A stretch of DNA of 64,000 bases from Strigamia acuminata. Lineage: Eukaryota > Arthropoda > Chilopoda > Geophilomorpha > Linotaeniidae. Below the pieces are notes generated by a model. It worked only from the letters and a program-made list of their open reading frames with translations. It was not told the origin of the DNA and searched no databases. Below are positions 7,041-63,101 of this stretch, piece after piece. Location of the stretch: positions 1-64,000 of the forward strand of contig CASHSZ010000019.1 in assembly GCA_949358305.1 (NCBI GenBank), read 5' to 3'. The position numbers were made by a program, and so were the translations under genes. Positions within the stretch are counted from its first letter, which is position 1; every line of letters starts with the position of its first letter.

Positions 7041-8290
7041 TCACTTTGTATGCTTTGATAAATGTTTTTTAAAAGTCTCATTTTGACTACTATAATAAGC
7101 ACACAAATGGCACTCGAAGCGTTTTTCTGCACTATGCGTTAACAAATGCATTTTTAAACTACTGTTTGAAGGACAGGAATAATCACACAAAAGGCACTTG
7201 AATGGTCTTTCTCCAGTATGGATTAATAAATGTGTTTTTAGATTTCCCCTTTGACTGCTGGAATAATCACACAAATGGCACTTGAATGGTGTTTCTCCAG
7301 TATGGATTAATAAATGTGTTTTTAGATTTCCCCTTTGACTGCTGGAATAATCACACAAATGGCACTTGAATGGTTTTTCTCCACTATGGATTAACAAATG
7401 CATTTTTAAACTATTATTTATAGTACAGGAATAATCACACAAATGACACTTGAATGGTTTTTCTCCACTATGGGTTAACAAGTGCATTTTTAAACTATTA
7501 TTTGTAGTACAGGAATAATCACACAAATGACACTTGAATGGTTTTTCCCCACTATGGGTTAACAAATGCATTTTTAAATTACTATTTGAAGTACAGGAAT
7601 AAGCACACAAATGGCACTTGAATGGTTTTTCTCCACTATGGGTTAATAAGTGCATTTTTAAATTACTATTTGTAGTACAGGAATAATCACACAAATGGCA
7701 CTTGAATGGTTTTTCCCCACTATGGGTTAACAAATGCATTTTTAAACTATTATTTATAGTACAGGAATAATCACACAAATGACACTTGAATGGTTTTTCT
7801 CCACTATGGGTTAACAAGTGCATTTTTAAACTACTACTTATAGCACAGGAGTAATCACATAAATGGCACTTGAATGGCTTTTCTCCACTATGGATTAATA
7901 AATGTTTTTTTAGAGCTCCACTTTGATTGCAGGAATAATCACACAAATTGCACTTGAATGGTTTTTCTCCACTATGGGTTAACAAATGCATTTTTAAATT
8001 ACTATTTGAAGTACAGGAATAAGCACACAAATGGCACTTGAATGGTTTTTCTCCACTATGGGTTAATAAGTGCATTTTTAAATTACTATTTGTAGTACAG
8101 GAATAATCACACAAATGGCACTTGAATGGTTTTTCCCCACTATGGGTTAACAAATGCATTTTTAAACTATTATTTGTAGTACAGGAATAATCACACAAAT
8201 GGCACTTGAATGGTTTTTCCCCACTATGGGTTAACAAATGCATTTTTAAACTATTATTTGTAGTACAGGAATAATCACACAAATGACACT
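7041..8290 (-). pseudogene. C2H2 zinc-finger gene, 3' part (15 fingers), cut by palindrome insertion
   Basis: On the minus strand this frame has 15 C2H2 units of 28 residues (C-x2-C-x12-H-x3-H) joined by HSGEKPFKC or HTGEKPFKC linkers and ends with the last finger and TAA. Many units are near-identical (TTNNSL, TTNSNL, TSNSNL), which shows recent amplification of 84-bp repeats. The frame has no start codon of its own because it is continuous with 22547-23411 on the far side of the 14.25-kb insertion. Removing the insertion plus one GACACT copy moves positions by 14,256, and 23126-14256-8282 = 588 = 3 x 196, so the frame is restored exactly. Such proteins bind DNA in the nucleus; the target is unknown. 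Confidence 0.9.
8285..8290. repeat. target-site duplication GACACT, left copy
   Basis: GACACT directly precedes the AGTAGTGGG terminus. The same six bases follow the other terminus at 22541-22546. The pre-insertion sequence GACACTTGAATGG is part of the finger linker found many times in this gene. Confidence 0.93.
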
Positions 8291-8332
8291 AGTAGTGGGT
8301 TTATGGGGATCCTGGGCCAGTGGTTGGTGGTG

Positions 8333-8465
8333 AGGGGGGGGGGGGGTGGGGGTGGTGAGGGTTAAGTGGGGGGAGAGATAAGGGGAGGGGAAGATAAGGG
8401 GAGGGGGAGATAAGAGGAGGGGGAGATAAGGAGAGGGGGAGATAAGGGGAGAGCTAAGTGGGGGT
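8333..8465. repeat. G-rich subterminal repeats, left arm
   Basis: Runs of G followed by repeated units of the type GGGGAGATAAG lie 40-175 bp from the element end. Several runs of four or more G could form G-quadruplexes on this strand. The mirror copy is C-rich at about 22370-22500. Confidence 0.85.
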
Positions 8466-8485
8466 GACTAATTGCTTCAATCAAT

Positions 8486-8930
8486 TAGATCATTAGATCA
8501 TTGTGTCTTAGTCTATTATTTGTTATTGTTGTTTTACTTTACTTAAGTGCCTCGTTGTTTTTCTCAAAATTCAAAGGACCCTTAGGTTACTATTAACTAA
8601 AGGCAGGATATTATTGGCTAGTCATCTTTGATCTCTTGGAATTATCAATCAATTAGTCTTATCATTTGATCTTTGTATCCTAGACTGTTATTTGTTATTG
8701 GTGTTTTTCTTTACTTAAGTGCCCTGTTGATGTTTTTCCCAAATTTTCAAAGGACCCTGGTATCATCATTCAATTAGACTTATCATTTGATCATTGTGTC
8801 CTAGACTATTATTTGTTATTGTTGTTTTTCTTTACTTATGTATCATGTTGTTGTTTTTCCTAAATTTTCAATGAACCCAAAGGCTACTTTAACCCAAAGG
8901 AGGGATATTATTGGCTTGACATCCTAACCA
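8486..8930. repeat. about 120-170 bp tandem repeat, three copies, left arm
   Basis: Three diverged copies share the order ATCATTTGATC, TATTATTTGTTATTG, TTACTTAAGTG, TTTTCAAAGGACCC. They lie between the G-rich end and gene A and could hold its upstream control region. They are mirrored at about 21900-22340. Confidence 0.8.
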
Positions 8931-8947
8931 GTGAGAAACTAGTAATG

Positions 8948-8955
8948 TATATATA
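8948..8955 (+). promoter_or_regulatory. TATA box of gene A, left arm
   Basis: TATATATA stands about 80 bp upstream of the ATG at 9034, followed by a pyrimidine-rich leader. This is a normal RNA polymerase II spacing. Confidence 0.6.
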
Positions 8956-9033
8956 CCTGCAATTTCCTACACACTTCTCTTCCCTTCTTCCATCGCATTT
9001 TGGGATACTCACCATTTCTTTCACAAACTAGCC

Positions 9034-9543
9034 ATGTGTACTACTACAAGCAGCAGAATCCTCTCACTTGGTGGGGAGAATTATTGCCAAATCACCTCAT
9101 TTTTGTCAACTGTTTTTATCCACCTGAGACGTTTTCAATCTTGCTCGAATGGAAAACTTTATCCTAGTTGTGAAGGTATGGCTATGAATACGTCATTATT
9201 TTATGATTTCGTGAACCATTGGGAGCAGATTTCAAGCGAACTTTCATCTATGAAAAACAATCCAATGAAAACATCATCATCTATTGACTGTGGTGGTGTA
9301 TTAGTTAGCATAAGCAAGTCAAAAACTGCAGTTGTATCCATGAAGATATGGTGTTCTTGTATCCCAGGAATGTTTATTATTCTTCCTATTGATCAATGGC
9401 GTCAACTCTTGATGTATAAATCATATATATTTTCAACCATTGATGTGGCATTGGCAAAGCTGCAAGATTGTAACCCATTTGATGAGGAGGAAACACCTGC
9501 TGCAACTGGAATTGAAACTTCAACCACATCTCGTGTTTTCTGA
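9034..9543 (+). CDS. gene A: 169-residue protein with possible PC4-like fold (left arm)
   Basis: A single-exon frame from ATG 9034 to TGA. Residues 28-63 (FIHLRRF...NGKLYPSCEGMAMN...W) follow the pattern of the PC4/Sub1 single-strand DNA-binding domain: two beta strands with an (I/L)R.F core, a GK..P..G turn, a hydrophobic strand and a helix with Trp. Residues 100-128 (VVSMKIW...GMFIILPIDQW) look like a second, weaker copy. The C-terminus is acidic, then Ser/Thr-rich (residues 149-167). If correct, it would bind single-stranded DNA in the nucleus, which suits a hairpin-forming replicon. The match is by pattern only and could be wrong. The right-arm copy encodes the identical protein. Confidence 0.6.
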   Translation: MCTTTSSRILSLGGENYCQITSFLSTVFIHLRRFQSCSNGKLYPSCEGMAMNTSLFYDFVNHWEQISSELSSMKNNPMKTSSSIDCGGVLVSISKSKTAVVSMKIWCSCIPGMFIILPIDQWRQLLMYKSYIFSTIDVALAKLQDCNPFDEEETPAATGIETSTTSRVF

Positions 9544-10129
9544 TGAAAATGATGAAGATTAGATTTCTACTTAATTTGTTATTTGTATTGATATAATGGA
9601 AATTGTATACTTTTTGTTTAGATTTTTTTGTACATATTTCTACTTTATATTAATTATAAGTTAGCGATAAAATTGCTTTATTTTCATTCTACCATTGAAT
9701 TGGGGTTGTAGTCTCCTTTTTTTTTTTAACATAATAATGTATATCTCTTCCTTTGAAATACAGCATAAACTGTAATATCATGTATGCATATATTGTTTCT
9801 ATGATTTCTCACTAGTAGGTGCGCGAGCAGCTTGAGGTTATGTGAATGAAAACGAGTAACCTGTGCAGCACTTACGTTGCATGAAGACTAATGAACTGCA
9901 TGAGGAGTTTGAGCTGGTGTACCATTCACTGTGTTAACAGGAGTCCATAGCAATCTATTGTTACGCATCACATTTTGCTGAGAACACAACTACTTTCAAG
10001 TGAATATTGGAACTCTATTCAATTGGATCTAATCGAGCGGATCATACCCACCCAAACTCAACCCGTTGGTGTTATGATATTATGACACGACAACACATTG
10101 AACCTCTTCCTGATTCTACAGATGGTGAG
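9544..10129. other. gene A 3' region, left arm
   Basis: Mostly A/T-rich. A short open stretch at 10010-10125 (reading ADHTHPNSTRWCYDIMTRQ on the plus strand) ends in a good donor (G|GTGAGT at about 10124), but no partner exon is visible because the satellite follows. I do not call it a gene. Confidence 0.4.
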
Positions 10130-12600
10130 TAATTTTAAATGAATCAAAAGTGCTTTAAAATAAATCAAAAGTGATTTAAAATGAATCAAAGTGATTTAAA
10201 ATGAATCAAAGGTGATTTAAAATGAATCAAAAGCGATATAAATTGAATCAAAATATGATCAAAACTCATTCAAAATGAATCAAAATATGATCAAAACTCA
10301 ATCTTAATGAATCAAAATGAATAAAAAAAAAAAGAATGAAAATTTTGAATGAAACAAATACTTAATCAAAATGAATCAAAAATGATTCAAAACTTAAACA
10401 AAAGAAATCAAAACTTAATCAAATGAATCAAAATCAATCAAAACTGATTCAAAACGAAATCAAAATGAATCAAAGTGATTTCAAATGAATCAAAAGTGAT
10501 TTAAAATTTATCAAAACTTAATCAAAATATATCAAAACTTAATGAAATGAAATCAAAACTTAATGAAATCAAATCAAAACTTAATGAAATGAAATCAAAA
10601 CTTAATGAAATGAAATCAAAACTTAAACAAAAGAAATCAAAACTTAATCAAACTGAATCAAAATTGTTTCAAAACTTTATCAAAATGAAACAAAACTGAT
10701 TCAAAACTTAATCAAAATGAATCAAAAATGTTTCAAAACTTAATCAAAATCAATCAAAACTGATTCAAAACAAAATCAAATTGAATCAAAGTGATTTCAA
10801 ATAAATCAAAAGTGATTTAAAATTTATCAAAACTTAATCAAAATATATCAAAACTTAATGAAATGAAATCAAAACTTAATGAAATGAAATCAAAACTTAA
10901 TGAAATGAAATCAAAACTTAATGAAATGAAATCAAAACTTAAACAAAAGAAATCAAAACTTAATCAAACTGAATCAAAATTGTTTCAAAACTTTATCAAA
11001 ATGAAACAAAACTGATTCAAAACTTCAAAACTTAAACAAAAGAAATCAAAACTTAATCAAACTGAATCAAAATTGTTTCAAAACTTTATCAAAATGAAAC
11101 AAAACTGATTCAAAACTTAATCAAAATGAATCAAAAAATGTTTCAAAACTTAATCAAAATCAATCAAAACTGATTCAAAACGAAATCAAATTGAATCAAA
11201 GTGATTTCAAATGAATCAAAAGTGATTTAAAATTTATCAAAACTTAATCAAAATATATCAAAACTTAATGAAATGAAATCAAAACTTAATGAAATGAAAT
11301 CAAAACTTAATGAAATGAAATCAAAACTTAATGAAATGAAATCAAAACTTAAACAAAAGAAATCAAAAACTTAATCAAACTGAATCAAAATTGTTTCAAA
11401 ACTTTATCAAAATGAAACAAAACTGATTCAAAACTTAATCAAAATGAATCAAAAAATGTTTCAAAACTTAATCAAAATCAATCAAAACTGATTCAAAACG
11501 AAATCAAATTGAATCAAAGTGATTTCAAATGAATCAAAAGTGATTTAAAATTTATCAAAACTTAATCAAAATATATCAAAACTTAATGAAATCAAATCAA
11601 AACTTAATGAAATCAAATCAAAACTTAAACAAAATAAATCAAAACTAAATCCAAATGAAATCAAAACTAAATCTAAATGAAATCAAAACTAAATCCAAAT
11701 GAAATCAAAACTAAATCCAAATAAAATCAAAACTAAATCCAAATGAAATCAAAACTAAATCAAAATGAAATCAAAACTTAAACAAATAAAATCAAAACTT
11801 AATCAAAATAAATCAAATAAATAAAAAAGGAATCAAAATTTCAAATGAAACAAATACTTAATCAAAATAAATAAAAAAAAAAAAAATGAAATCAAAACTT
11901 AAACAAATGAAATCAAAACTAAATCCAAATGGAATCAAAACTTAATCAAAATGAAATCAAATCACATTCAAAACTAAATCCAAATGATATCAAAACTTAA
12001 ACAAATAAAATCAAAAACTTAAACAAATGAAATCAAAACTTAAACAAATGAAATTAAAACTTAAACAAATGAAATCAAAACTTAAACAAATGAAATCAAA
12101 ACTTAAACAAATGAAATCAAAACTAAAACAAAATAAATCAAAACTTAATCAAAACTTAATCCAAATGAAGTCAAATCTCAATCAAAACTGAATCGAAATG
12201 AAATCAAAACTCATTCAAAACTTAATCGTAATGATACAAATACTCAATCAAAACTTAATCAAAATGAAACAAAATGAATCAAAACTAATTCAAAACTTAA
12301 TCAAAATGAATCAAAAATGATTCAAAACTTAAACAAAATAAATCAAAACTTAATCAAATGAAATCAAAACTCAATCAAAACTTTAATTGAAATGAAACAA
12401 ATACTTAATCAAAACTTAATCAAAATGAAAACAAATCTCAATCAAAACTTAATCGAAATGAAATCAAAACTGAATCAAAACTTAATTGTAATGAAACAAA
12501 TACTTAATCAAATGAATCAAAACTGATTCCAAAACTTAATCGAATGTTTCAAAACTTAATCAAAAATGATTCAACATTTATTCAAAATGAAGCAAATACT
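10130..12600. repeat. 2.5-kb AATCAAAACTTAA satellite, left arm
   Basis: Degenerate short units such as AATCAAAACTTAATG and AATCAAAACTGATTC are organised into a higher-order unit of about 370 bp. That unit recurs at least three times (for example the blocks containing TTGTTTCAAAACTTTATC near 10664, 10980, 11070 and 11390). The plus strand is almost free of G, while the right arm has the complementary T-rich strand. Copy number differs slightly between arms. Confidence 0.9.
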
Positions 12601-12791
12601 TAATCAATTTTTACTTCATAATTTATAGATTAAACTGATAATTTGTTGATTTCTCTTAGATTTGATTGAAATGTCACTCAGAACTTTCACTGCTGGGAAA
12701 TAATGATTAAAAATAAAAGTAAAAAAATAAAAAAAAATAAAAAAAAATAAATAATGGATTTTAAAATAACAAAATTTATTTTTTATAATTT

Positions 12792-13304
12792 TTACCATGC
12801 TTTGCGACAATGGGGACATTTATGAACAAACTTCCCCCATTCTCTTATACAAATGTGGTGAAAAGTATGTCCACACCCTAACATATTAACATTTTCTCCT
12901 ATACAAATTACATTACTACAAATGATACAATCCTTGTTAATATCCTCCAAAAGTATTTCTGGAATTAGTTGCACTGCAGGTGGAACTGCTACATCTGCGG
13001 GTGGAGGTAGTATTTCTGCTAATGGAGCTGCTACATCTGGTGGAGGTAGTATGTTTGCTGCTTGAGGTCCTACATCTGCTGGTGGTTGCAGATATCGCAA
13101 CATTTGTTGCTGCTCACTCATTATCAACTCCAATGTCTGAATGTGATTTTGGAGTGATTGAATATGTTCACGCATATTTTCGTTTTCCTCATTTTGCTGC
13201 TGTATGTATTGGAAAACATACCGGAGCTCGCCTGGTCTTGGGATATTCATCATCTGTTGCGGTGATAGTAATGGTGGAGAATTTGCTGCACGTTTTTCTT
13301 CCAT
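12792..13304 (-). CDS. gene B: RING-H2 protein, 170 residues (left arm)
   Basis: Single-exon frame on the minus strand. Residues 30-72 are a Gln/Glu-rich coiled coil. Residues 73-112 contain repeated PPADV/PPPDVAAP segments. Residues 126-166 form a RING-H2 finger: C126-x2-C129-x14-C144-x-H146-x2-H149-x2-C152-x10-C163-x2-C166. RING fingers of this kind recruit E2 enzymes and act as ubiquitin ligases; the coiled coil suggests a dimer. It differs from the right-arm copy by one residue (Ser versus Pro at position 14). The nearby frame on the opposite strand (12980-13369) is an antisense shadow. Confidence 0.85.
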   Translation of the reverse strand: MEEKRAANSPPLLSPQQMMNIPRPGELRYVFQYIQQQNEENENMREHIQSLQNHIQTLELIMSEQQQMLRYLQPPADVGPQAANILPPPDVAAPLAEILPPPADVAVPPAVQLIPEILLEDINKDCIICSNVICIGENVNMLGCGHTFHHICIREWGKFVHKCPHCRKAW

Positions 13305-13385
13305 TATTTCTTCTGTGTGTTCGAATATTTGAAGTGGTGCTCTCTATGTCAAGTTTGTCTATGCTGTAGAGTCTTTAAGTAAACC

Positions 13386-13393
13386 CTTTTATA
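13386..13393 (-). promoter_or_regulatory. TATA box of gene B, left arm
   Basis: TATAAAAG on the minus strand, 82 bp upstream of the gene B ATG. It is the mirror of 17418-17425. Confidence 0.65.
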
Positions 13394-14342
13394 CCTACTC
13401 TTGCTGTAAGATCACCTGACACCACCACCACCATTATTCATATTGTTTTGTATGTAGTTGTCATCATTTTCCATTGTTTTCAAAGAATGTGCACTCTATT
13501 TTTAAACAAAGTTGTTTTTCACAATTGTAGTCCCCCTTAATGACTTTCAGGTGCATGTTTACGTGAAACTATCACCATTATTCAGTGTACATTAGGTCTA
13601 GTTTTTAACATTTTCCTTGTTTTCAAAAATAAAAGTCAACTCTATTTTTAAACAACTTTGTTTTTTACATATATATATATATATAGTACTCCTTATTTTA
13701 CTTGAAGAGTTTCTTTAGATTTGTTTGAAATGTCTCTCAGAACTCTCTCTAATGACAAACCCAAACTAATCCATTAAATTAATTTATTATTTCCCTTCAT
13801 CAATTAATAATTTTTTCTTTCTTTTATCGTTTTTTCTCATTTTTCAACTTTCCTTCAAACAACTTCTAAATTCCACCTACATTTTAAATAACTGAATTTT
13901 ACAAAGAAACTAAATTTTTTTTTTAAATAAATTATACAAAAAGTAACTAAATTTTTAACTAATTTATAGAAGTTTATAGAAACTAAATTCATAAAACTTT
14001 TAAAACCTTTAATTTGCAACAATGTCAGCCTCCAATTATTGAGAATGTGCAGTGATTTTATGACGACAAGTGTTGCGGTGATATCATTTTTAGATCTCTA
14101 CAGATTTTTTTAATTGTATAAAATTAATTATCAAGAACTATAAAGGTGTTCTCTAGATATTATAGAAAAAATCAGATAAATCTTCCTTAAAAAAAAAAAA
14201 AAAAATGCAAATCCTCACTCTTATTTCATCTCATTTATTTTTTTTTTTTAAAGATAAATGGATAACTCAGAGAGAAAAAAAGTACACACATAATTTTCAA
14301 ACAATACAATTATTTAAAGCATCACACAAAAAAAAAAATGAT
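13394..14342. other. A/T-rich spacer between genes B and C, left arm
   Basis: No coding potential seen. It contains a short (TA)n run near 13670 and T- and A-runs near 13920 and 14190. It is mirrored at 16469-17417. Confidence 0.5.
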
Positions 14343-14846
14343 TCAGTTATCCGGGAATATTTCCTTTGGGTGGGGCCAAGGAATAAAAGTAGTTGATGAC
14401 ATTTCTTTCTCCATCAGAGGTAATACTGCTTCAGGGGCATTCCCGCAAATGCTTTCATCACTTGAAGTCGAGAAAGTAACATCTAAGGAGAAAAAACAAA
14501 GAGAAATTAAAAAAAAAAAATAATAATAATAATAATAATATTAATAATTTTAAATGCTGACAGAAAATGTTTTACTTACACCCCATTGCATATCCAAATA
14601 TCATTATAAAAAAAGAAATAATGGTCATTAAAAGCCATCTCCTCTTGTTGAAAAAAATTGAGCAAGTCTAAACATTTTAAAAAAATAATAATAATAATAA
14701 TAATAATAATTAAAATTCATTGTCTTAGAATTAGTAAAATATCTCACCATCATGCTAATTTTCCTCATAATTTCATTAGAAGAAACTTGTTCATCTTCAC
14801 TCCTTTCAAATTGAGAGAGATTTACCTGAACAGCAATTTCAACCAT
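14343..14846 (-). CDS. gene C: spliced small membrane protein, three exons (left arm)
   Basis: Exons on the minus strand: 14748-14846 (start ATG), 14580-14667 and 14343-14482 (stop TGA). The donors are GTGAGA and GTAAGT, both acceptors end in TAG, and phases 0 and 1 join correctly to give 108 residues. The N-terminal 40 residues are hydrophilic. Exon 2 has a basic KRR stop-transfer-like start followed by one membrane helix (about residues 43-62, WLLMTIISFFIMIFGYAMG). The C-terminal 46 residues are polar with one Cys and end in a Pro-rich tail (WPHPKEIFPDN). A single-pass membrane protein is likely. No family is recognised. The poly-ATT tract in the first intron makes longer single-frame readings unreliable. 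Confidence 0.65.
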
Positions 14847-15964
14847 GTCTGATGCATAAAGTTTTAACTATTAGTTTCACTTTTCTAAAATAACACAGGA
14901 AATACAGGAAAGGTGGGTTAAATATAGAAAAAAAAAAGGGGAGAAATAAAACTTTTATTGATGGAGTAATCTGGTGGTGAAATTCACTTCCACTTTTATT
15001 TTTATTTTTTTTTTTTTTTTTTTTACAAAATTCAGAATATTTCATCTAAAATCATCCAAATATGATAAAATTTCGTAATATTTCATCTATTTTCAACTAA
15101 TTATAATAAAAATCGTAATATTTTATGTAATTCCATCCAAAATTTGATAAAGCTCATAATATTTTTTCTAATTTCAACTGAAATATGATGCAATTATGGA
15201 ATATTTTATGAAATTTCAACTGAAATAATTTTTTTTTTAAACATAAAATTTTATTCATTTCTTTACATTTAACAAATTTTATCACCAATGATTTCTACAC
15301 AAGGAGCATTTACGAGTATTACATCTCCATTCCACTATGAATTTGCAAAAACATCCCTCTTTGAAGTTTGAAAACACCACCTCTGCCCCGCATTGCTTTA
15401 AACTTGAAATTATTTTTTATGTGCGGGGCAGAGGGGTGTTTTCAATCTTCAAAGGGGATGTTTTTGCAAATTCATAGTGGAATGGAGATGTAATACTCGC
15501 AAATGCTCCTTGTGTAGAAATCATTGGTGATAAAATTTGTTAAATGTAAAGAAATGAATAAAATTTTATGTTTAAAAAAAAAATTATTTCAGTTGAAATT
15601 TCATAAAATATTCCATAATTGCATCATATTTCAGTTGAAATTAGAAAAAATATTATGAGCTTTATCAAATTTTGGATGGAATTACATAAAATATTACGAT
15701 TTTTATTATAATTAGTTGAAAATAGATGAAATATTACGAAATTTTATCATATTTGGATGATTTTAGATGAAATATTCTGAATTTTGTAAAAAAAAAAAAA
15801 AAAAAATAAAAATAAAAGTGGAAGTGAATTTCACCACCAGATTACTCCATCAATAAAAGTTTTATTTCTCCCCTTTTTTTTTTCTATATTTAACCCACCT
15901 TTCCTGTATTTTCTGTGTTATTTTAGAAAAGTGAAACTAATAGTTAAAACTTTATGCATCAGAC
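14847..15964. other. centre of the palindrome
   Basis: The inner arms are A/T-rich with a repeated CGTAATATTTTATG-type motif of about 55 bp. The arms meet at GCCCCGCA (ends 15392) and TGCGGGGC (starts 15422) around a 29-bp spacer, 15393-15421. Slight mismatches (for example GAGGTGG versus GAGGGG near the centre) show that the two arms are not machine-identical. The two gene C promoters must lie here, back to back. Confidence 0.85.
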
Positions 15965-16468
15965 ATGGTTGAAATTGCTGTTCAGGTAAATCTCTCTCAA
16001 TTTGAAAGGAGTGAAGATGAACAAGTTTCTTCTAATGAAATTATGAGGAAAATTAGCATGATGGTGAGATATTTTACTAATTCTAAGACAATGAATTTTA
16101 ATTATTATTATTATTATTATTATTATTTTTTTAAAATGTTTAGACTTGCTCAATTTTTTTCAACAAGAGGAGATGGCTTTTAATGACCATTATTTCTTTT
16201 TTTATAATGATATTTGGATATGCAATGGGGTGTAAGTAAAACATTTTCTGTCAGCATTTAAAATTATTAATATTATTATTATTATTATTATTTTTTTTTT
16301 TTAATTTCTCTTTGTTTTTTCTCCTTAGATGTTACTTTCTCGACTTCAAGTGATGAAAGCATTTGCGGGAATGCCCCTGAAGCAGTATTACCTCTGATGG
16401 AGAAAGAAATGTCATCAACTACTTTTATTCCTTGGCCCCACCCAAAGGAAATATTCCCGGATAACTGA
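15965..16468 (+). CDS. gene C: spliced small membrane protein, three exons (right arm)
   Basis: Mirror of 14343-14846. Exons 15965-16063, 16144-16231 and 16329-16468, with donors GTGAGA (16064) and GTAAGT (16232) and acceptors ending TAG at 16143 and 16328. The predicted protein (108 residues, one central membrane helix) is the same as in the left arm. Preserving coding sequence and splice sites in both arms suggests recent duplication or gene conversion between arms. Confidence 0.65.
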
Positions 16469-17417
16469 ATCATTTTTTTTTTTTGTGTGATGCTTTAAAT
16501 AATTGTATTGTTTGAAAATTATGTGTGTACTTTTTTTCTCTCTGAGTTATCCATTTATCTTTAAAAAAAAAAAATAAATGAGATGAAATAAGAGTGAGGA
16601 TTTGCATTTTTTTTTTTTTTTTAAGGAAGATTTATCTGATTTTTTCTATAATATCTAGAGAACACCTTTATAGTTCTTGATAATTAATTTTATACAATTA
16701 AAAAAATCTGTAGAGATCTAAAAATGATATCACCGCAACACTTGTCGTCATAAAATCACTGCACATTCTCAATAATTGGAGGCTGACATTGTTGCAAATT
16801 AAAGGTTTTAAAAGTTTTATGAATTTAGTTTCTATAAACTTCTATAAATTAGTTAAAAATTTAGTTACTTTTTGTATAATTTATTTAAAAAAAAAATTTA
16901 GTTTCTTTGTAAAATTCAGTTATTTAAAATGTAGGTGGAATTTAGAAGTTGTTTGAAGGAAAGTTGAAAAATGAGAAAAAACGATAAAAGAAAGAAAAAA
17001 TTATTAATTGATGAAGGAAAATAATAAATTAATTTAATGGATTAGTTTGGGTTTGTCATTAGAGAGAGTTCTGAGAGACATTTCAAACAAATCTAAAGAA
17101 ACTCTTCAAGTAAAATAAGGAGTACTATATATATATATATATGTAAAAAACAAAGTTGTTTAAAAATAGAGTTGACTTTTATTTTTGAAAACAAGGAAAA
17201 TGTTAAAAACTAGACCTAATGTACACTGAATAATGGTGATAGTTTCACGTAAACATGCACCTGAAAGTCATTAAGGGGGACTACAATTGTGAAAAACAAC
17301 TTTGTTTAAAAATAGAGTGCACATTCTTTGAAAACAATGGAAAATGATGACAACTACATACAAAACAATATGAATAATGGTGGTGGTGGTGTCAGGTGAT
17401 CTTACAGCAAGAGTAGG
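16469..17417. other. A/T-rich spacer between genes C and B, right arm
   Basis: Mirror of 13394-14342. No coding potential seen. Confidence 0.5.
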
Positions 17418-17425
17418 TATAAAAG
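17418..17425 (+). promoter_or_regulatory. TATA box of gene B, right arm
   Basis: TATAAAAG, 82 bp upstream of the ATG at 17507, with an A/C-rich leader between. Confidence 0.65.
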
Positions 17426-17506
17426 GGTTTACTTAAAGACTCTACAGCATAGACAAACTTGACATAGAGAGCACCACTTCAAATATTCGAACACACAGAA
17501 GAAATA

Positions 17507-18019
17507 ATGGAAGAAAAACGTGCAGCAAATTCTCCACCATTACTACCACCGCAACAGATGATGAATATCCCAAGACCAGGCGAGCTCCGGTATGTTTTCC
17601 AATACATACAGCAGCAAAATGAGGAAAACGAAAATATGCGTGAACATATTCAATCACTCCAAAATCACATTCAGACATTGGAGTTGATAATGAGTGAGCA
17701 GCAACAAATGTTGCGATATCTGCAACCACCAGCAGATGTAGGACCTCAAGCAGCAAACATACTACCTCCACCAGATGTAGCAGCTCCATTAGCAGAAATA
17801 CTACCTCCACCCGCAGATGTAGCAGTTCCACCTGCAGTGCAACTAATTCCAGAAATACTTTTGGAGGATATTAACAAGGATTGTATCATTTGTAGTAATG
17901 TAATTTGTATAGGAGAAAATGTTAATATGTTAGGGTGTGGACATACTTTTCACCACATTTGTATAAGAGAATGGGGGAAGTTTGTTCATAAATGTCCCCA
18001 TTGTCGCAAAGCATGGTAA
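17507..18019 (+). CDS. gene B: RING-H2 protein, 170 residues (right arm)
   Basis: Mirror copy of 12792-13304 with the same coiled coil, PPADV repeats and RING-H2 ligands; the only residue difference I see is Pro instead of Ser at position 14. It ends 12 bp before an AATAAA at 18031, so the transcript probably stops before the satellite. It is transcribed outward, away from the centre, as is its left-arm twin. Confidence 0.85.
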   Translation: MEEKRAANSPPLLPPQQMMNIPRPGELRYVFQYIQQQNEENENMREHIQSLQNHIQTLELIMSEQQQMLRYLQPPADVGPQAANILPPPDVAAPLAEILPPPADVAVPPAVQLIPEILLEDINKDCIICSNVICIGENVNMLGCGHTFHHICIREWGKFVHKCPHCRKAW

Positions 18020-18219
18020 AAATTATAAAAAATAAATTTTGTTATTTTAAAATCCATTATTTATTTTTTTTTATTTTTTTTTATTTTTTTACTTTTATTT
18101 TTAATCATTATTTCCCAGCAGTGAAAGTTCTGAGTGACATTTCAATCAAATCTAAGAGAAATCAACAAATTATCAGTTTAATCTATAAATTATGAAGTAA
18201 AAATTGATTAAGTATTTGC

Positions 18220-20700
18220 TTCATTTTGAATAAATGTTGAATCATTTTTGATTAAGTTTTGAAACATTCGATTAAGTTTTGGAATCAGTTTTGATTCATT
18301 TGATTAAGTATTTGTTTCATTACAATTAAGTTTTGATTCAGTTTTGATTTCATTTCGATTAAGTTTTGATTGAGATTTGTTTTCATTTTGATTAAGTTTT
18401 GATTAAGTATTTGTTTCATTTCAATTAAAGTTTTGATTGAGTTTTGATTTCATTTGATTAAGTTTTGATTTATTTTGTTTAAGTTTTGAATCATTTTTGA
18501 TTCATTTTGATTAAGTTTTGAATTAGTTTTGATTCATTTTGTTTCATTTTGATTAAGTTTTGATTGAGTATTTGTATCATTACGATTAAGTTTTGAATGA
18601 GTTTTGATTTCATTTCGATTCAGTTTTGATTGAGATTTGACTTCATTTGGATTAAGTTTTGATTAAGTTTTGATTTATTTTGTTTTAGTTTTGATTTCAT
18701 TTGTTTAAGTTTTGATTTCATTTGTTTAAGTTTTGATTTCATTTGTTTAAGTTTTAATTTCATTTGTTTAAGTTTTGATTTCATTTGTTTAAGTTTTTGA
18801 TTTTATTTGTTTAAGTTTTGATATCATTTGGATTTAGTTTTGAATGTGATTTGATTTCATTTTGATTAAGTTTTGATTCCATTTGGATTTAGTTTTGATT
18901 TCATTTGTTTAAGTTTTGATTTCATTTTTTTTTTTTTATTTATTTTGATTAAGTATTTGTTTCATTTGAAATTTTGATTCCTTTTTTATTTATTTGATTT
19001 ATTTTGATTAAGTTTTGATTTTATTTGTTTAAGTTTTGATTTCATTTTGATTTAGTTTTGATTTCATTTGGATTTAGTTTTGATTTTATTTGGATTTAGT
19101 TTTGATTTCATTTGGATTTAGTTTTGATTTCATTTAGATTTAGTTTTGATTTCATTTGGATTTAGTTTTGATTTATTTTGTTTAAGTTTTGATTTGATTT
19201 CATTAAGTTTTGATTTGATTTCATTAAGTTTTGATTTGATTTCATTAAGTTTTGATATATTTTGATTAAGTTTTGATAAATTTTAAATCACTTTTGATTC
19301 ATTTGAAATCACTTTGATTCAATTTGATTTCGTTTTGAATCAGTTTTGATTGATTTTGATTAAGTTTTGAAACATTTTTTGATTCATTTTGATTAAGTTT
19401 TGAATCAGTTTTGTTTCATTTTGATAAAGTTTTGAAACAATTTTGATTCAGTTTGATTAAGTTTTTGATTTCTTTTGTTTAAGTTTTGATTTCATTTCAT
19501 TAAGTTTTGATTTCATTTCATTAAGTTTTGATTTCATTTCATTAAGTTTTGATTTCATTTCATTAAGTTTTGATATATTTTGATTAAGTTTTGATAAATT
19601 TTAAATCACTTTTGATTCATTTGAAATCACTTTGATTCAATTTGATTTCGTTTTGAATCAGTTTTGATTGATTTTGATTAAGTTTTGAAACATTTTTTGA
19701 TTCATTTTGATTAAGTTTTGAATCAGTTTTGTTTCATTTTGATAAAGTTTTGAAACAATTTTGATTCAGTTTGATTAAGTTTTGATTTCTTTTGTTTAAG
19801 TTTTGAAGTTTTGAATCAGTTTTGTTTCATTTTGATAAAGTTTTGAAACAATTTTGATTCAGTTTGATTAAGTTTTGATTTCTTTTGTTTAAGTTTTGAT
19901 TTCATTTCATTAAGTTTTGATTTCATTTCATTAAGTTTTGATTTCATTTCATTAAGTTTTGATTTCATTTCATTAAGTTTTGATATATTTTGATTAAGTT
20001 TTGATAAATTTTAAATCACTTTTGATTTATTTGAAATCACTTTGATTCAATTTGATTTTGTTTTGAATCAGTTTTGATTGATTTTGATTAAGTTTTGAAA
20101 CATTTTTGATTCATTTTGATTAAGTTTTGAATCAGTTTTGTTTCATTTTGATAAAGTTTTGAAACAATTTTGATTCAGTTTGATTAAGTTTTGATTTCTT
20201 TTGTTTAAGTTTTGATTTCATTTCATTAAGTTTTGATTTCATTTCATTAAGTTTTGATTTGATTTCATTAAGTTTTGATTTCATTTCATTAAGTTTTGAT
20301 ATATTTTGATTAAGTTTTGATAAATTTTAAATCACTTTTGATTCATTTGAAATCACTTTGATTCATTTTGATTTCGTTTTGAATCAGTTTTGATTGATTT
20401 TGATTCATTTGATTAAGTTTTGATTTCTTTTGTTTAAGTTTTGAATCATTTTTGATTCATTTTGATTAAGTATTTGTTTCATTCAAAATTTTCATTCTTT
20501 TTTTTTTTATTCATTTTGATTCATTAAGATTGAGTTTTGATCATATTTTGATTCATTTTGAATGAGTTTTGATCATATTTTGATTCAATTTATATCGCTT
20601 TTGATTCATTTTAAATCACCTTTGATTCATTTTAAATCACTTTGATTCATTTTAAATCACTTTTGATTTATTTTAAAGCACTTTTGATTCATTTAAAATT
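18220..20700. repeat. 2.5-kb satellite, right arm
   Basis: Inverted copy of 10130-12600, here as TTAAGTTTTGATT-type units on the plus strand. A few units are gained, lost or changed relative to the left arm, which accounts for part of the 17-bp difference in arm length. Confidence 0.9.
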
Positions 20701-21287
20701 ACTCACCATCTGTAGAATCAGGAAGAGGTTCAATGTGTTGTCGTGTCATAATATCATAACACCAACGGGTTGAGTTTGGGTGGGTATGATCCGCTCGATT
20801 AGATCCAATTGAATAGAGTTCCAATATTCACTTGAAAGTAGTTGTGTTCTCAGCAAAATGTGATGCGTAACAATAGATTGCTATGGACTCCTGTTAACAC
20901 AGTGAATGGTACACCAGCTCAAACTCCTCATGCAGTTCATTAGTCTTCATGCAACGTAAGTGCTGCACAGGTTACTCGTTTTCATTCACATAACCTCAAG
21001 CTGCTCGCGCACCTACTAGTGAGAAATCATAGAAACAATATATGCATACATGATATTACAGTTTATGCTGTATTTCAAAGGAAGAGATATACATTATTAT
21101 GTTAAAAAAAAAAAGGAGACTACAACCCCAATTCAATGGTAGAATGAAAATAAAGCAATTTTATCGCTAACTTATAATTAATATAAAGTAGAAATATGTA
21201 CAAAAAAATCTAAACAAAAAGTATACAATTTCCATTATATCAATACAAATAACAAATTAAGTAGAAATCTAATCTTCATCATTTTCA
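20701..21287. other. gene A 3' region, right arm
   Basis: Mirror of 9544-10129. No additional gene is supported. Confidence 0.4.
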
Positions 21288-21797
21288 TCAGAAAACACGA
21301 GATGTGGTTGAAGTTTCAATTCCAGTTGCAGCAGGTGTTTCCTCCTCATCAAATGGGTTACAATCTTGCAGCTTTGCCAATGCCACATCAATGGTTGAAA
21401 ATATATATGATTTATACATCAAGAGTTGACGCCATTGATCAATAGGAAGAATAATAAACATTCCTGGGATACAAGAACACCATATCTTCATGGATACAAC
21501 TGCAGTTTTTGACTTGCTTATGCTAACTAATACACCACCACAGTCAATAGATGATGATGTTTTCATTGGATTGTTTTTCATAGATGAAAGTTCGCTTGAA
21601 ATCTGCTCCCAATGGTTCACGAAATCATAAAATAATGACGTATTCATAGCCATACCTTCACAACTAGGATAAAGTTTTCCATTCGAGCAAGATTGAAAAC
21701 GTCTCAGGTGGATAAAAACAGTTGACAAAAATGAGGTGATTTGGCAATAATTCTCCCCACCAAGTGAGAGGATTCTGCTGCTTGTAGTAGTACACAT
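21288..21797 (-). CDS. gene A: 169-residue possible PC4-like protein (right arm)
   Basis: Mirror copy of 9034-9543; the predicted protein is identical. It is transcribed inward from the element end toward the satellite, convergent with gene B. See the left-arm entry for the domain reasoning and its limits. Confidence 0.6.
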   Translation of the reverse strand: MCTTTSSRILSLGGENYCQITSFLSTVFIHLRRFQSCSNGKLYPSCEGMAMNTSLFYDFVNHWEQISSELSSMKNNPMKTSSSIDCGGVLVSISKSKTAVVSMKIWCSCIPGMFIILPIDQWRQLLMYKSYIFSTIDVALAKLQDCNPFDEEETPAATGIETSTTSRVF

Positions 21798-21875
21798 GGC
21801 TAGTTTGTGAAAGAAATGGTGAGTATCCCAAAATGCGATGGAAGAAGGGAAGAGAAGTGTGTAGGAAATTGCAGG

Positions 21876-21883
21876 TATATATA
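21876..21883 (-). promoter_or_regulatory. TATA box of gene A, right arm
   Basis: TATATATA on the minus strand, about 80 bp upstream of the ATG at 21797. Confidence 0.6.
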
Positions 21884-21899
21884 CATTACTAGTTTCTCA

Positions 21900-22530
21900 C
21901 TGGTTAGGATGTCAAGCCAATAATATCCCTCCTTTGGGTTAAAGTAGCCTTTGGGTTCATTGAAAATTTAGGAAAAACAACAACATGATACATAAGTAAA
22001 GAAAAACAACAATAACAAATAATAGTCTAGGACACAATGATCAAATGATAAGTCTAATTGAATGATGATACCAGGGTCCTTTGAAAATTTGGGAAAAACA
22101 TCAACAGGGCACTTAAGTAAAGAAAAACACCAATAACAAATAACAGTCTAGGATACAAAGATCAAATGATAAGACTAATTGATTGATAATTCCAAGAGAT
22201 CAAAGATGACTAGCCAATAATATCCTGCCTTTAGTTAATAGTAACCTAAGGGTCCTTTGAATTTTGAGAAAAACAACGAGGCACTTAAGTAAAGTAAAAC
22301 AACAATAACAAATAATAGACTAAGACACAATGATCTAATGATCTAATTGATTGAAGCAATTAGTCACCCCCACTTAGCTCTCCCCTTATCTCCCCCTCTC
22401 CTTATCTCCCCCTCCTCTTATCTCCCCCTCCCCTTATCTTCCCCTCCCCTTATCTCTCCCCCCACTTAACCCTCACCACCCCCACCCCCCCCCCCCCTCA
22501 CCACCAACCACTGGCCCAGGATCCCCATAA
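21900..22530. repeat. subterminal repeats, right arm
   Basis: Mirror of the left subterminal region: three copies of the 120-170 bp repeat (about 21900-22340), then C-rich units of the CTTATCTCCCC type and a run of C near 22480-22498. Confidence 0.85.
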
Positions 22531-22540
22531 ACCCACTACT

Positions 22541-22546
22541 GACACT
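22541..22546. repeat. target-site duplication GACACT, right copy
   Basis: Directly follows the CCCACTACT terminus and continues into TTGAATGGTTTTTCTCC, the normal finger-linker sequence. Confidence 0.93.
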
Positions 22547-34095: not shown

Positions 34096-37000
34096 ATGGT
34101 ACGCGTGTACGAGATAAAGAGGCGAGCGCTCACGACGGCCATTGCTGCTGCCAACGCCCTGATGACCACTATCACCACGGGAGTCAACAACGCAGCCCTA
34201 TTGTCGAAGGACGAACTCGCCCTTTGGTCGCAACAACTCAACCAAAAATTACTCAGAGCACAAAAATCGTTTGAAGTCTGTTTGGAACAAGCCAAGTCGG
34301 AACACGAGATCGATGAAACAATGGGCGATATGGATGCGACAGAAGACAGAGCAGCCGCTACAAAGGCAACGATAGACAGGTACATTCGATTAAATTACCC
34401 ACCTGTTCCACCTGTAGTCGACGCTCCGCTACCCGCACCCACGCCGATTGACCACGACGCGCTCGTCGCCGCTGTGACCGCCGCTGTGACCGCCACCGCT
34501 CGAGCCACTCCGCCGCCCGTAATCCACCAAAACGTAAGAAGAAAACCGCTAGAAATTCCAAGGTTCGACGGGAAACGACCCGAGGACTGGGGGGGTTTCT
34601 GGAAGACTTTTTGCGTGCAAGTCGCGGACGACGTGACACTCGACGAGGTGCAAAAACTGCTGCACTTACGCGCTCACCTGCTCGGCGACGCGATGGAGGA
34701 AATTAGAACACTCGAAATAAACGCCGCTAACTACGCCGTGGCTGTAAACCGACTGACGAAAAAATACTGTGATCGGGCAGTGTTGGAAAACAGGTTTTTG
34801 TCTAACCTATTAAATTTGCCAATTATTAGCAGTGAACGAGACATTGTTGGACTACAAAAGCTGCACCGACACGTGGAAATAAACGTGGAAAACCTGTCAA
34901 ATATCGAGGTCCCGCTCGTAGAAATTCAGCGCATGCTGTTTCCTGTCTTAGCCGCAGCCATTCCAAGAACCGTGATGCGCAAATACGATGACGACTGCGA
35001 CGGCGAACGATCGGTAATAAGATTAATGTCATGGGTACGAGAATTTTTGTTGAAGGAAAACCGTTACGAAATGATGATAAACCAACAAAAAACGAACAAA
35101 CCACCCACGTCAACTGAACCGACCAAAGGAAACGGAGATTCGAAGGGAAAGTCACATCGACGCAGAGGAGGAGCCAAGGAGAGCTCCGTCAACTCACTCT
35201 CGGTGGTAACAAATAAATGTCAATTTTGCTCTTCTAATGAACACAGCCGAAAAACGTGCCCACTCACGGTGGAAGAGCGAAGGAGGAAAATTCAATCACA
35301 AGGAACCTGCATGAGATGTTTAGGCAGAACACCCCATAAAACTGAAGACTGCCGTACCACCATGAAATGCTTCCGATGTGACGGATTACACCACACTCAA
35401 ATCTGCGATCAACCACGAGCCAACCCGATCGACAACACTGCGCTAAAAGTACACGCCTCTGCCGTCGTGAGTAAAACCAAGAAATACGAATTTTTAATGG
35501 TGATGATGGTGAACGTGATTGGCGAAAAAATAACGAAACCAGCCGTGTGCTACGTCGATGGCGGGGCACAACGGACATTTATAAGAGCTGATCTGTCGAG
35601 AAAACTAAATCTGAAAATTATAGGAACCGAGCAAATGACTTTATCCGTGTTTGGTCGCGAGCCGACGACTGGAGTCCACAACAAGGTGGAATTGACTCTC
35701 ACTCCGACGCACGCCGAGACGCCTCGCATCACAATAGAAGCCGTAGAAATCTCACACGTGACGTCAACACCCTGCGAAGTCCCGAATGAATACTTAAACA
35801 AAAAATTGAAGGAGAAAGGAGTCCAAGTGGCATGTAAACAGGTGGCCCTGCATTCCGACGAGGTGGATTTGTTGATAGGAGTCGACAACTACTGGAAAAT
35901 TACGACCAAGAGAACTGAATTCATAGAAGACAACTTAATAGCGGTCAACACAAACTTTGGGTGGACACTGCATGGACAAACAACCAATGGCACTCACATC
36001 CTTGCAACAACAGTGAGAACAAATAAAATCACCCTTGTACAATCCACAGATGACATTATGAAGAAACTCTGGGAATTGGAGGCCATTGGAATCCAGCATG
36101 AGTCGATGGAAGACACGGACGAAGTCGAAGTTCTGCGCAGATTCAACGAATCAATACGATGGACTGGAACCAACTACTCGGTTGCACTGCCGTGGGTCGT
36201 CGACAGCAACGAGCTAGAAGATAATTTTACCATTGCAGAGCAGCGTTTCATGAATTTGCTTAGAAAATTCCGTCGACAGCCTAATTTGTATTTAGAATAT
36301 AAAAAAGTCATCGAGGAACAATTGGAACAAGGCATCGTTGAAGAAGTGACCGGAGACACGTCCAACCCAATTTATTACATGCCACACAGGCCAATAATAA
36401 AAGAAGAGCGAGTTACAACAAAACTGAGGATCGTGTTCGACGCGTCTGCCCATCGAAAGGGGCAGCTATCGCTAAACGATTGCCTGTCCAAAGGTATAAA
36501 CTTTTTGCCGTCCCTAATCGTTGTATTGATGAAATTTAGACTCCGAAAAATCGCTGAGACGTCGGATATTCGCAAGGCGTTCCACATGATCGAAATTGAA
36601 GTAAAGGATCGAAACGTAACACGTTTTCTGTGGGTTTGCGCAGACTGGGACGGAACGGGACGAGCCAAAATTCGAGTACTACGCCAAACACGCGTTCTCT
36701 TCGGCGCAGCGCCCAGCCCTTTCCTTTTAAATGCAACCATCAAACGCCACATCAAGATCTACCAAGACAAATATCCCGCCACATACGAATTACTTTGTCG
36801 ATTTTTATACGTGGACGATTTGATCACGTCGGTGGACGACATTGACCAGGCAGTGAGGACATTCGAACAAGCTCGCGAAATGCTCTCATCAGCCGGCATG
36901 CAATTGGTAAAATGGCAGACTAATTCTCCTGAACTACGCGAAATATTCAGAAAAGAAGATCCTGCAGATGCAAAGGTGACATCAAATGAAGAATCCAAAG

Positions 37001-59071: not shown

Positions 59072-59389
59072 TGTGAAATCTCGCAATTTAAAAGAAGCTA
59101 TTTTTGCTAAAAAACTGATTGAAATTCTAACTTAACTGGAATTTTTCTGAAGACAAAATAAAACCATGCTTTTAACATAAAGACAAGATTTATTGTAACA
59201 ATATTTGGGGTTTACATTTGGAAAAACAGGAACAAAGGTCAAACATGATAATTTATGACGAATAACTGGACTTCCGTACGCGCGTCATACAATCTCGCAC
59301 AAGAAAGCACCGCCTGGATGATGGCTTCACTGCACGACACCGAACATGAACGCGCGACCCCAAACATCTAAAACTCGTCAGTTTTCACA
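59072..59389 (-). repeat. 3' LTR of truncated BEL/Pao element (318 bp)
   Basis: On the minus strand it starts TGTGAAAACTGACGAG, directly overlapping the polymerase stop, contains AATAAA near 59160, and ends GCGAGATTTCACA. The first 11 bases are like the LTR start of the complete BEL element (TGTGAAAACCGAC), so the families are related. No matching LTR is found on the right side of the element. Confidence 0.75.
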
Positions 59390-62300: not shown

Positions 62301-63101
62301 TTTTTGCGCGTGCGACGAGGCATCGTACACGATACGCAATTTAGTTGTACTACGACGCTCTCGTATGACGGGACTGTGCGGCAAATAGTAACAACCGCTC
62401 TGATCTGACACTTCTGGGGCCGTCTCAATGATTCCTTCCGCCATCTGGTCATCCAAAACTTTCTTATAGCGATAATAAAGTTCGGGATCTTTTCTAAATT
62501 TTCGGACTAAATTCCACAATCTTTTTAAAGCGATTTGATAGTTACTGTCTAGTTCACTTTTCGGCATTAGCCACGGCAACCGCACTTCATATCTGTCACC
62601 AGTCCATTTAATCGACTTCTTGAACGCTGTCACTGCTTGATCGTCCTCGTCTTGATGGTCAGTAAGAGTCTCGTGTGGAATACCCAAGTCTTCCAACTCC
62701 CAAAAACGTTTCAGCATGTTGTCCAGTCGATCCTCGTAACGCGCAAGATGCACCTGAATGGTCGGCTGTTTGGTTATCGTTTCCTCACTTCGAATCGCTC
62801 CGTGCATCGTCCACCCAAGTCCTGTATGCAAACACATCAGATTTTCGTCTAATCGTCTTGTCTCGCCGGTAACAATGCGCCAAAAGTTGTCAGCACCGAT
62901 CAAAATTGACACTTCGTTCGGTTGAATTGAAAGCTGATCAATATTCAAAACAATGTTATTTTGCTTCAACTTCTCACGCACGTGAACTCCCGACTGTTTT
63001 GCTAAGGAATTGCTGATCCACGGCACTTCTATGAGTTCTAAATCGAAAGAATTGTCATTAATTTGGGTGTTTCGTAATGTAATTTGCTGCGATCCGGGTT
63101 T
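59385..63101 (-). CDS. BEL/Pao Pol, 5'-truncated (RT, RNase H, integrase intact)
   Basis: The open frame runs from 63101 (just after an upstream TAA) to TGA 59385, about 1,238 codons. It begins at the end of the protease region (ITLRNTQIND, then ILIGADNFWRI). It continues with reverse transcriptase (LRIVYDASSH, catalytic YVDD), RNase H (FCDASPLAYG, NPADLLTRG), integrase zinc domain (VFHGGLGETL..CFVCKR) and core (GIDFAGP, IYSDNALTF, GGFWERM). Gag, the knuckles and the protease active site are absent. The first ATG is internal, so it cannot be translated as a normal Gag-Pol. The frame has stayed open for 3.7 kb, so truncation is recent, or it may be expressed from elsewhere. It is about as far from the complete BEL element as related families usually are. 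Confidence 0.85.
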   Translation of the reverse strand, partial: KPGSQQITLRNTQINDNSFDLELIEVPWISNSLAKQSGVHVREKLKQNNIVLNIDQLSIQPNEVSILIGADNFWRIVTGETRRLDENLMCLHTGLGWTMHGAIRSEETITKQPTIQVHLARYEDRLDNMLKRFWELEDLGIPHETLTDHQDEDDQAVTAFKKSIKWTGDRYEVRLPWLMPKSELDSNYQIALKRLWNLVRKFRKDPELYYRYKKVLDDQMAEGIIETAPEVSDQSGCYYLPHSPVIRERRSTTKLRIVYDASSHAQKSRSLNDCLFTGPNLLPELINALLFFRQLIVALISDIKQAFHQILLHLDDRDAVRFLWIAADWDLVSPIKVEILRQTRVLFGASPSPYLLNGTIQHHLEKYATKYAELIARLLKRFYVDDYLDSVSTDQEAIETYKKVSEIMCEASMDLVKWNSNSKLLREQFKIDHPETELETEVKVLGLKWNCELDELALDLEEVKTTLERELITKRRVIQLVAQVFDPLGFASPFTVTGKMFFQQLWKHKMEWDDRLPKELIPQWENWKSQLPELERVRVPRHYGIDPNASEIELHLFCDASPLAYGIVAYTRVRQCNSLINTFFVLSKCRIAPIKTLTLPRLELMGALLLARVAGRMKQFTTAKVTAWTDSTIVLCWLGERKKAIPFVARRVEEIKQHVPFANWRHCPGVQNPADLLTRGIDAKSLLESKTWWNGPEWLTMDEHEWPSVPTTQADDFEMELEETLAATVIVPQTWLIDVPTRYGSWRRLLRVTSWVNRFLNNCKSAVRDGSPLTTDEINNSERYWLQTMQQQSYSKELLAIKNQQSFERDSILRNVTCFMDSEQTMRLNTRIQWAGTKKNLKNPIVLHPNHPLTKLIILAAHQRVFHGGLGETLAELRQCFWTPKLRKTVKSELNRCFVCKRVQGRLVQQVEAALPPDRITQAAPFQVVGIDFAGPLYQQSGEKCYIVVITCAVIRAVHLELVTSMNTERFILALKRFFARRGIPTKIYSDNALTFKRTEKELCALLSSIRKEQFQGFLTDRKIEWSFIVERAPWWGGFWERMVKSTKMSLKKVLGQTTLDFEELTTILSEVESCINSRPITYVYTENEDEQPLSPSHFLTGGRSCNLPDPNQKLDEKLSSSTVTLLKRWKQRQQKISHLWSRWNHEYLTELREYNKTKASREVQKGDIVVIEELNQPRMTWKIGRIREVFIGRDGRVRACEIQLPFNKVLRRPVQRLCILEAQDGIEASEELTPAPV

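Follow-up and report, generated by a model that had tools for sequence, protein, structure and literature searches.

What kind of element is a near-perfect palindrome of 14,250 bp, and what has kept its two halves alike? The question is raised by positions 8291-22540 of a 64,000-nucleotide stretch of the genome of the geophilomorph centipede Strigamia acuminata (assembly GCA_949358305.1, contig CASHSZ010000019.1, positions 1 to 64,000; that whole stretch is called the window here). We propose that this palindrome is probably an inherited, non-autonomous palindromic satellite of the Polintons (Mavericks) resident in the same genome, resembling the defective interfering (DI) genomes of adenovirus. 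The proposal draws on Polinton-like termini and on four findings that go beyond an initial annotation of this DNA: arm concordance, a shared spacer, mosaic tips and two Polinton-related genes.

A palindrome and its three relatives

The element has the following layout (window coordinates, strand, feature):

8285..8290, no strand: left target-site duplication (TSD), GACACT, directly abutting the element
8291..15392, plus: left arm, 7,102 bp
8291..8308, plus: terminus AGTAGTGGGTTTATGGGG, common to the palindrome and the Polintons
8291..8465, plus: left tip tract, with 13 of 168 ungapped sites copy-diagnostic (three copies compared)
9034..9543, plus: PC4-like open reading frame (ORF) of 169 amino acids (aa), homologue of a terminal Polinton ORF, left arm
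10137..12607, plus: minisatellite with units of about 11, 21 and 42 bp, left arm
12792..13304, minus: RING protein ORF of 170 aa, left arm, outward-facing (zf-RING_2, E 1.1e-8)
13305..15392, plus: AT-rich inner arm
15393..15421, no strand: central spacer, 29 bp; same centre, in opposite orientation, in the copies at 60.09 Mb of contig C1 and 5.26 Mb of contig C13
15422..22540, minus: right arm, 7,119 bp, an inverted copy of the left arm
17507..18019, plus: RING ORF, right arm
18204..20694, minus: minisatellite, right arm
21288..21797, minus: PC4-like ORF, right arm
22366..22540, minus: right-end tip tract, mirror of 8291-8465 and identical to it in sequence
22523..22540, minus: terminus AGTAGTGGGTTTATGGGG, right end
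22541..22546, no strand: right TSD, GACACT, directly abutting the element

The coordinates and an alignment of the arms bear out the arm lengths, the spacer and the GACACT duplication given in the initial annotation. The element, whose ends read AGTAGT...ACTACT, has inserted into an 84-bp zinc-finger repeat array, which it splits and which resumes on either side. Aligned with each other, its arms show 12 differences, of which 5 are substitutions and six are 1-bp indels, the last being a 21-bp indel in the minisatellite. An inverted stretch of 3,369 bp at 100% identity excludes a chance origin of the mirror symmetry, and that explanation was accordingly rejected. A perfect inverted repeat, CTCTGCCCCGCA, stands on either side of the 29-bp spacer, and four ORFs of at least 150 aa are present, two per arm.

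The palindrome is not alone in its genome (237.5 Mb in 157 contigs, the window belonging to contig C30). A genome search with the RING protein gave 55 matches, the best eight of which form four outward-facing pairs, each marking a palindrome: the window copy, C13:3.986-4.000 Mb (13,931 bp), C1:60.085-60.099 Mb (13,484 bp) and C13:5.262-5.289 Mb (27,176 bp), named C13:3.99, C1:60.09 and C13:5.26 below; one weaker match is the broken RING frame of C13:5.26. All four are flanked by 6-bp duplications, each different (GACACT, CGCATG, GTAATA and GAGCAA). The 29-bp spacer is common to the window copy, C1:60.09 and C13:5.26, three of the four, which argues for inheritance as a palindrome; its inversion in the latter two means only that the element lies the other way round there. 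Right arms are incomplete in two copies, lacking about 1.5 kb in C1:60.09 and about 350 bp adjoining the centre in C13:5.26. The right half of the latter also holds about 12-13 kb of extra sequence (C13:5272790-5284671), and this extra 12 kb or so is probably a nested insertion.

Shared ends and Polinton-related genes

If the palindrome is a satellite, its ends should recur on a gene-bearing partner. Searching the host genome for the terminus, as the initial annotation had proposed, gave 26 matches with at most 2 mismatches (19 of them with 0 or 1) vs 8 for a reversed control pattern. Besides those of the window, the ends of eight pairs (six non-palindromic and two palindromic) and two single ends were read. 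The non-palindromic pairs with both ends read carry a perfect 6-bp duplication in five of six cases (GATTCT, GTTAGT, CAGCTT, AATAAT and CAGCTA, with AATAAT weak as simple sequence), and the sixth, on C78, has unlike flanks without a duplication. The initial annotation had looked to copies with the same ends and another duplication length as counter-evidence; 6 bp is the length in all four palindromes and in these five, so the shared ends go with 6-bp duplications in palindromes and gene-bearing Polintons alike. Both the 6-bp duplications of Polintons and an (AGT)2 end motif, the latter for vertebrates, are reported in a passage of PMC8097293. That motif is present as AGTAGT at both ends of the window copy and of C13:3.99 and is only partly matched in the other two, with AATAGT at one end and AGTAGT at the other in C13:5.26 and AGTAGG at both ends of C1:60.09.

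The likeness extends inward, the terminal 270-340 bp or so of the palindrome being 88-93% identical to ten local Polinton ends. Identity over the terminal inverted repeat (TIR) falls to 82-84% at the ends of the elements at C6:7.31, C78 (left), C1:2.74, C1:31.39 and C1:6.14 Mb and to 75-79% in the C1:7.84-7.91 Mb copies. The latter region (C1:7836703-7912322) holds seven same-strand copies of the Polinton-like terminus, with no opposite-strand partner in the searches made, and is perhaps a tandem array. On C78, the Polinton (C78:55796-71276) has a left flank identical over 60 bases to the flank on the right of the C6:7.31 Mb element, and its right flank begins AAGATG, the six bases that precede the single end on C22. 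Two insertions seem to have been joined here, either because the contig is chimeric or through ectopic recombination of one Polinton with another.

The partners include elements of about 15.4 kb in which the sole sequence common to the two halves is a terminal repeat of about 280-460 bp (150-bp cut-off). We listed the ORFs of three such copies and searched those of one, which encodes a predicted integrase (rve, E 7e-19) with a chromodomain, an adenovirus-type protease (Peptidase_C5, E 4.5e-7) and an AlkB-like 2OG oxygenase; ATPase matches fell below the Pfam cut-off (best E 0.0013). A 1,500-aa ORF carries the polymerase motifs KLMNNSVFGK and FTDTDS; a PDB search with it returned zinc-finger proteins among the best 60 of 170 matches, and a PHROGs search gave endonuclease VII as its only match. 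Finally, a 446-aa ORF has 875 homologues, and among the 120 listed many are named F54H12.2-like, a name that we take to denote the Polinton capsid protein, so that this ORF is presumably capsid-like. Judged by predicted content against the gene set described in a passage of PMC4028283, these elements are Polintons. A gene-bearing partner with matching ends is thus present in the genome (for C1:60.09 it is known from partner ends alone), and of the relatives that the initial annotation had called for, a gene-bearing, putatively autonomous partner was found and the monomeric form was not: a search of the genome with the inner arm (13305..15392), which sets a lower bound, returned 32 matches, 10 of them in the four palindromes and 22 covering at most 264 query bases, with no single-arm copy; the seven long matches all lie within the four palindromes.

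What the arms carry was tested with the 11 ORFs of a local Polinton against the window element (tblastn, E <= 1e-4). Only the PC4-like ORF matched; the Polinton core proteins are therefore absent, and an element without its own integrase, pPolB, ATPase, protease and capsid genes must be a derivative, not an autonomous Polinton. The initial statement that the element has no Polinton genes thus holds for the core proteins and fails for the arm as a whole, which has a homologue of the terminal PC4-like gene and a Polinton-related RING gene. In the Polintons whose ORFs were listed the PC4-like gene adjoins one TIR, and both arms of the palindrome carry this PC4-side end, a mirror duplication of one viral end. 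From these homologies the arm reads as a Polinton terminus with the PC4-like gene that comes first in it, followed by a minisatellite and a Polinton-related RING gene.

Arm and Polinton versions of the PC4-like protein are 58% identical over 186 residues, and the Pfam PC4 match is below the cut-off in both alike. The ORF is intact in five of the six arms read (one has a stop), and the ratio of nonsynonymous to synonymous divergence (dN/dS) between palindrome and Polinton versions is 0.41. It has 0 of 507 copy-diagnostic sites vs 9 of 1126 in non-coding sequence, which is not significant (p 0.065). A two-sequence alignment of the PC4-like protein found no homologues among 1963 candidates from a set of 5.8 billion proteins, and the structure model, with a mean predicted local distance difference test score of 51.7, is too poor to use. 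The RING ORF is intact in seven of eight arms, one of the seven ending one residue early, with a frameshift in the remaining arm; the same protein set gave no homologue at E <= 0.001 among 122 candidates. Selection on both genes is at most suggested, the between-copy counts for RING being very small. The link of the RING gene to Polintons comes from 12 RING-hit loci (L053-L064, of which L058 is the C13:5.26 palindrome): polymerase fragments occur in four and a match to a 229-aa Polinton ORF in one. Seven of the loci (L054, L057, L059 and L061-L064) form a cluster of diverged RING genes at C1:39.2-40.5 Mb, with polymerase fragments at four of the seven.

Concordant arms, mosaic tips and rival accounts

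We compared the arms in three segments, dropping columns with gaps from the substitution counts: the outer 1.8 kb (six of eight arms, those of C1:60.09, read only to about 60 bp, being left out), a 1.09-kb RING segment (eight arms) and a third segment of 0.65 kb (seven of eight arms, the shortened right arm of C1:60.09 being absent). In the outer segment the two arms of a copy differ at 0, 6 and 7 sites in the three copies, with 16-23 differences between copies; 22 sites (12, 7 and 3) group the two arms of one copy, 13 of them in the tip, and none groups single arms across copies. The RING segment has eight same-copy sites (6, 1 and 1), one that unites both arms of two copies and none joining single arms across copies. 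The third has one same-copy site, one uniting the window pair with the sole C1:60.09 arm and again none across; 23 of its 30 gap columns keep arm pairs together and seven split the arms of one copy. Given the shared spacer, independently evolving arms should have grouped across copies, and no substitution in these three segments does; the arms evolve as one within each copy.

This concordance might have arisen after insertion, in the same satellite, if chromosomal arm-to-arm gene conversion had kept the arms alike, as it does in the palindromes of mammalian Y chromosomes. Such an account makes special replication unnecessary and fits the likeness of the arms seen, over the parts read, in each of the four copies. 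However, private one-arm changes stand in the outer arms (3 + 3 in C13:3.99 and 3 + 4 in C13:5.26), and the stop in one PC4-like ORF and the frameshift in one RING ORF remain unconverted. Private changes thus persist while copy-diagnostic changes occur in both arms, so that conversion, if any, is not keeping up, and we consider it an unlikely explanation, if one to be reckoned with.

Nor do we favor, at a similarly low probability, a recurrent origin, in which palindromes would not be inherited but made anew whenever a Polinton derivative with a single arm snapped back at a hot-spot inverted repeat. Repeated folding at one point is conceivable given the perfect inverted repeat around the spacer, and recurrence would account both for identical arms and for the differing fold point of C13:3.99. 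It would require a single-arm source, however, and the long inner-arm matches described above, from a search that sets a lower bound, lie only in palindromes.

The tips have a different history from the body. In the first 175 bp or so, the 13 copy-diagnostic sites among 168 ungapped columns compare with 9 of 1633 in the body (three copies; Fisher p 6e-9), a divergence between copies about 14-fold that of the body. Aligned with the Polinton at C1:53.26 Mb, the window tip has 0 mismatches over its first 98 bases; that of C13:3.99 has 0 of 35 to C1:16.39 and C10:3.63, and that of C13:5.26 has 1-2 of 35 to C6:7.31 and the C78 left end. The 22-bp tip of C1:60.09, identical at its two ends, has no exact match outside this copy other than at two end pairs, C1:2.74 and C1:31.39 Mb. 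From base 200 inward, little separates one palindrome from another in this comparison, and the Polintons included in it are distant from them. The tips are therefore mosaic, matching different Polinton ends, and the exchange is patchy.

An assembly artefact, in which a false mirror resulted from an undetected hairpin adapter in a read or from haplotype collapse, is very hard to credit. It draws some support from contig C1, whose left flank equals that of the window copy (0 mismatches in 3,018 bases compared) and which continues for 2,652 bp into the element before following another path, into a GC-rich tandem repeat without Ns; of the two contigs, only C30 therefore has the window copy whole. 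C78, too, looks chimeric. Against an artefact stand the differing host flanks with a perfect 6-bp duplication on either side, the 12 differences between the window arms, and the existence of three more palindromes whose duplications are different, a 10-Mb contig holding two of them and a 67-Mb contig the third; we regard the palindrome as unlikely to be a product of assembly. The exit of C1 from the element, at 51723553 inside the minisatellite, is a probable misjoin at the palindrome, and an Rfam search of the C1 stretch that includes this point (L043) gave no match. Elsewhere in the window, long ORFs at 34096-39351 (plus) and 59385-62837 (minus) resemble, by eye, BEL/Pao-type retrotransposon polyproteins.

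A giant foldback transposon that encodes its own enzyme and resembles Polintons by chance, a version of the new class that the initial annotation had entertained, has next to no claim on these data: the inverted repeat does span the whole element, as in foldback elements, yet local Polintons have homologues of its termini, TIR segment and PC4-like gene, and no recognisable transposition enzyme is among the four long ORFs. The simple foldback reading was rejected on the genome-wide match of the ends to Polintons.

Proposed origin and significance of the putative satellite

The other suggestion of the initial annotation, a non-autonomous Polinton satellite moving in trans, is well supported by termini and 6-bp TSDs as in Polintons and by four dispersed palindromes with four different duplications, though its movement is postulated. 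With no polymerase, integrase or capsid gene, the element would depend on the enzymes of Polintons, acting at the common termini, for both copying and insertion, and such mobilisation in trans we strongly infer from the sequences. The palindrome may have originated during protein-primed, strand-displacing replication of a RING-bearing Polinton, when a strand snapped back at the short inverted repeat now in the centre and served as its own template. The product would have been a mirror molecule bearing one end twice, and it would then have been passed on as a palindrome. In later rounds a displaced strand would fold into a hairpin with its arms forming one heteroduplex, and repair or copying in this hairpin could make the arms identical before each insertion. 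The ends may recombine with a co-replicating Polinton, capturing its tip by template switching; exchange with whichever Polinton is replicating would make the tips differ while the body stays one lineage. The repetition in the end motif is held, in a passage of PMC8097293, to permit jumping-back in protein-primed replication.

Several points weigh against this scenario. Replication, packaging and transposition are postulated from sequence, and arm-to-arm gene conversion in the chromosome could homogenise the arms. No complete copy of the RING-bearing Polinton presumed to be the parent was found; the polymerase ORF had no Pfam polymerase match and was called by motifs; and the C1:2.74 and C1:31.39 Mb elements are known from their ends alone. 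The fold point of C13:3.99 lies about 220-240 bp further out than in the other copies, owing either to a central deletion or to a separate event. At bases 100-200 the window copy is nearer C1:32.40 (1 mismatch) than C1:53.26 (4), and between the tips of C13:3.99 and the window copy there is just 1 mismatch in 35 bases, the Polintons matched by the former not being specifically nearest to it beyond that point. Of the seven gap columns that split arms, four are private to one arm and three join a single arm to another copy. In C13:5.26 the RING-segment arms differ at 7 of 1071 sites, no less than between copies (5-12), and each of the seven changes is private to a single arm. The right arm of this copy has, in the third segment, 1-2 differences to other copies vs 3 to its own left arm, to which the three sites are private. 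Such a pattern is expected of an older copy that has changed since insertion, and it adds no support for concordance.

The palindrome resembles Polintons in its (AGT)2 start, 6-bp TSD, homologous TIR segment and terminal PC4-like gene and differs in lacking integrase, polymerase, ATPase, protease and capsid, in an inverted repeat that is the entire element and in a RING gene in both arms. Symmetric defective genomes with a duplicated left end are known in adenovirus, from outside the literature that we searched; they share with it the mirror molecule, one viral end on both sides, helper dependence and a presumed protein-primed replication, whereas the palindrome is integrated in an animal genome and forms an inherited lineage of four dispersed copies with tips matching different Polintons. 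Satellites of the virophage and transpoviron type are likewise small elements dependent on a virus-like partner, but the palindrome derives from a relative of its helper, lacks capsid genes and is palindromic. Foldback elements and miniature inverted-repeat transposable elements are also non-autonomous with an inverted-repeat structure, whereas the palindrome is much longer, has Polinton termini and has two protein genes open in most arms read. PMC9863843 has a passage on inverted terminal repeats and, in its reference list, a title on how single-stranded adenovirus DNA with a panhandle is duplicated. Among the best-ranked matches in the literature searched, which leaves out most subscription papers, none described a palindromic Polinton.

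Three of the palindromes, at 13.5-14.25 kb, fall inside the range of intact vertebrate Mavericks (12.7-24.6 kb in a passage of PMC8097293), and we hypothesise that packaging of the doubled unit of about 14 kb into helper capsids is possible; according to the same source, Polintons encode what a virus needs, yet particles have not been observed. Replication through a hairpin and interference with the helper are further hypotheses. Tentatively, these could combine in a giant-hairpin DI lineage with identical arms, tips of about 100-175 bp swapped to those of the active Polinton, packaging restored by length and PC4-like and RING genes under selection, possibly acting against helper or host as in virophages.

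A heritable palindromic satellite would preserve footprints of Polinton replication, its arm concordance suggesting a hairpin or panhandle stage and its mosaic tips suggesting exchange with helpers. Such an element would give animals a counterpart to the virophage-type satellites and a means of probing, by genome sequence alone, which Polintons were active.

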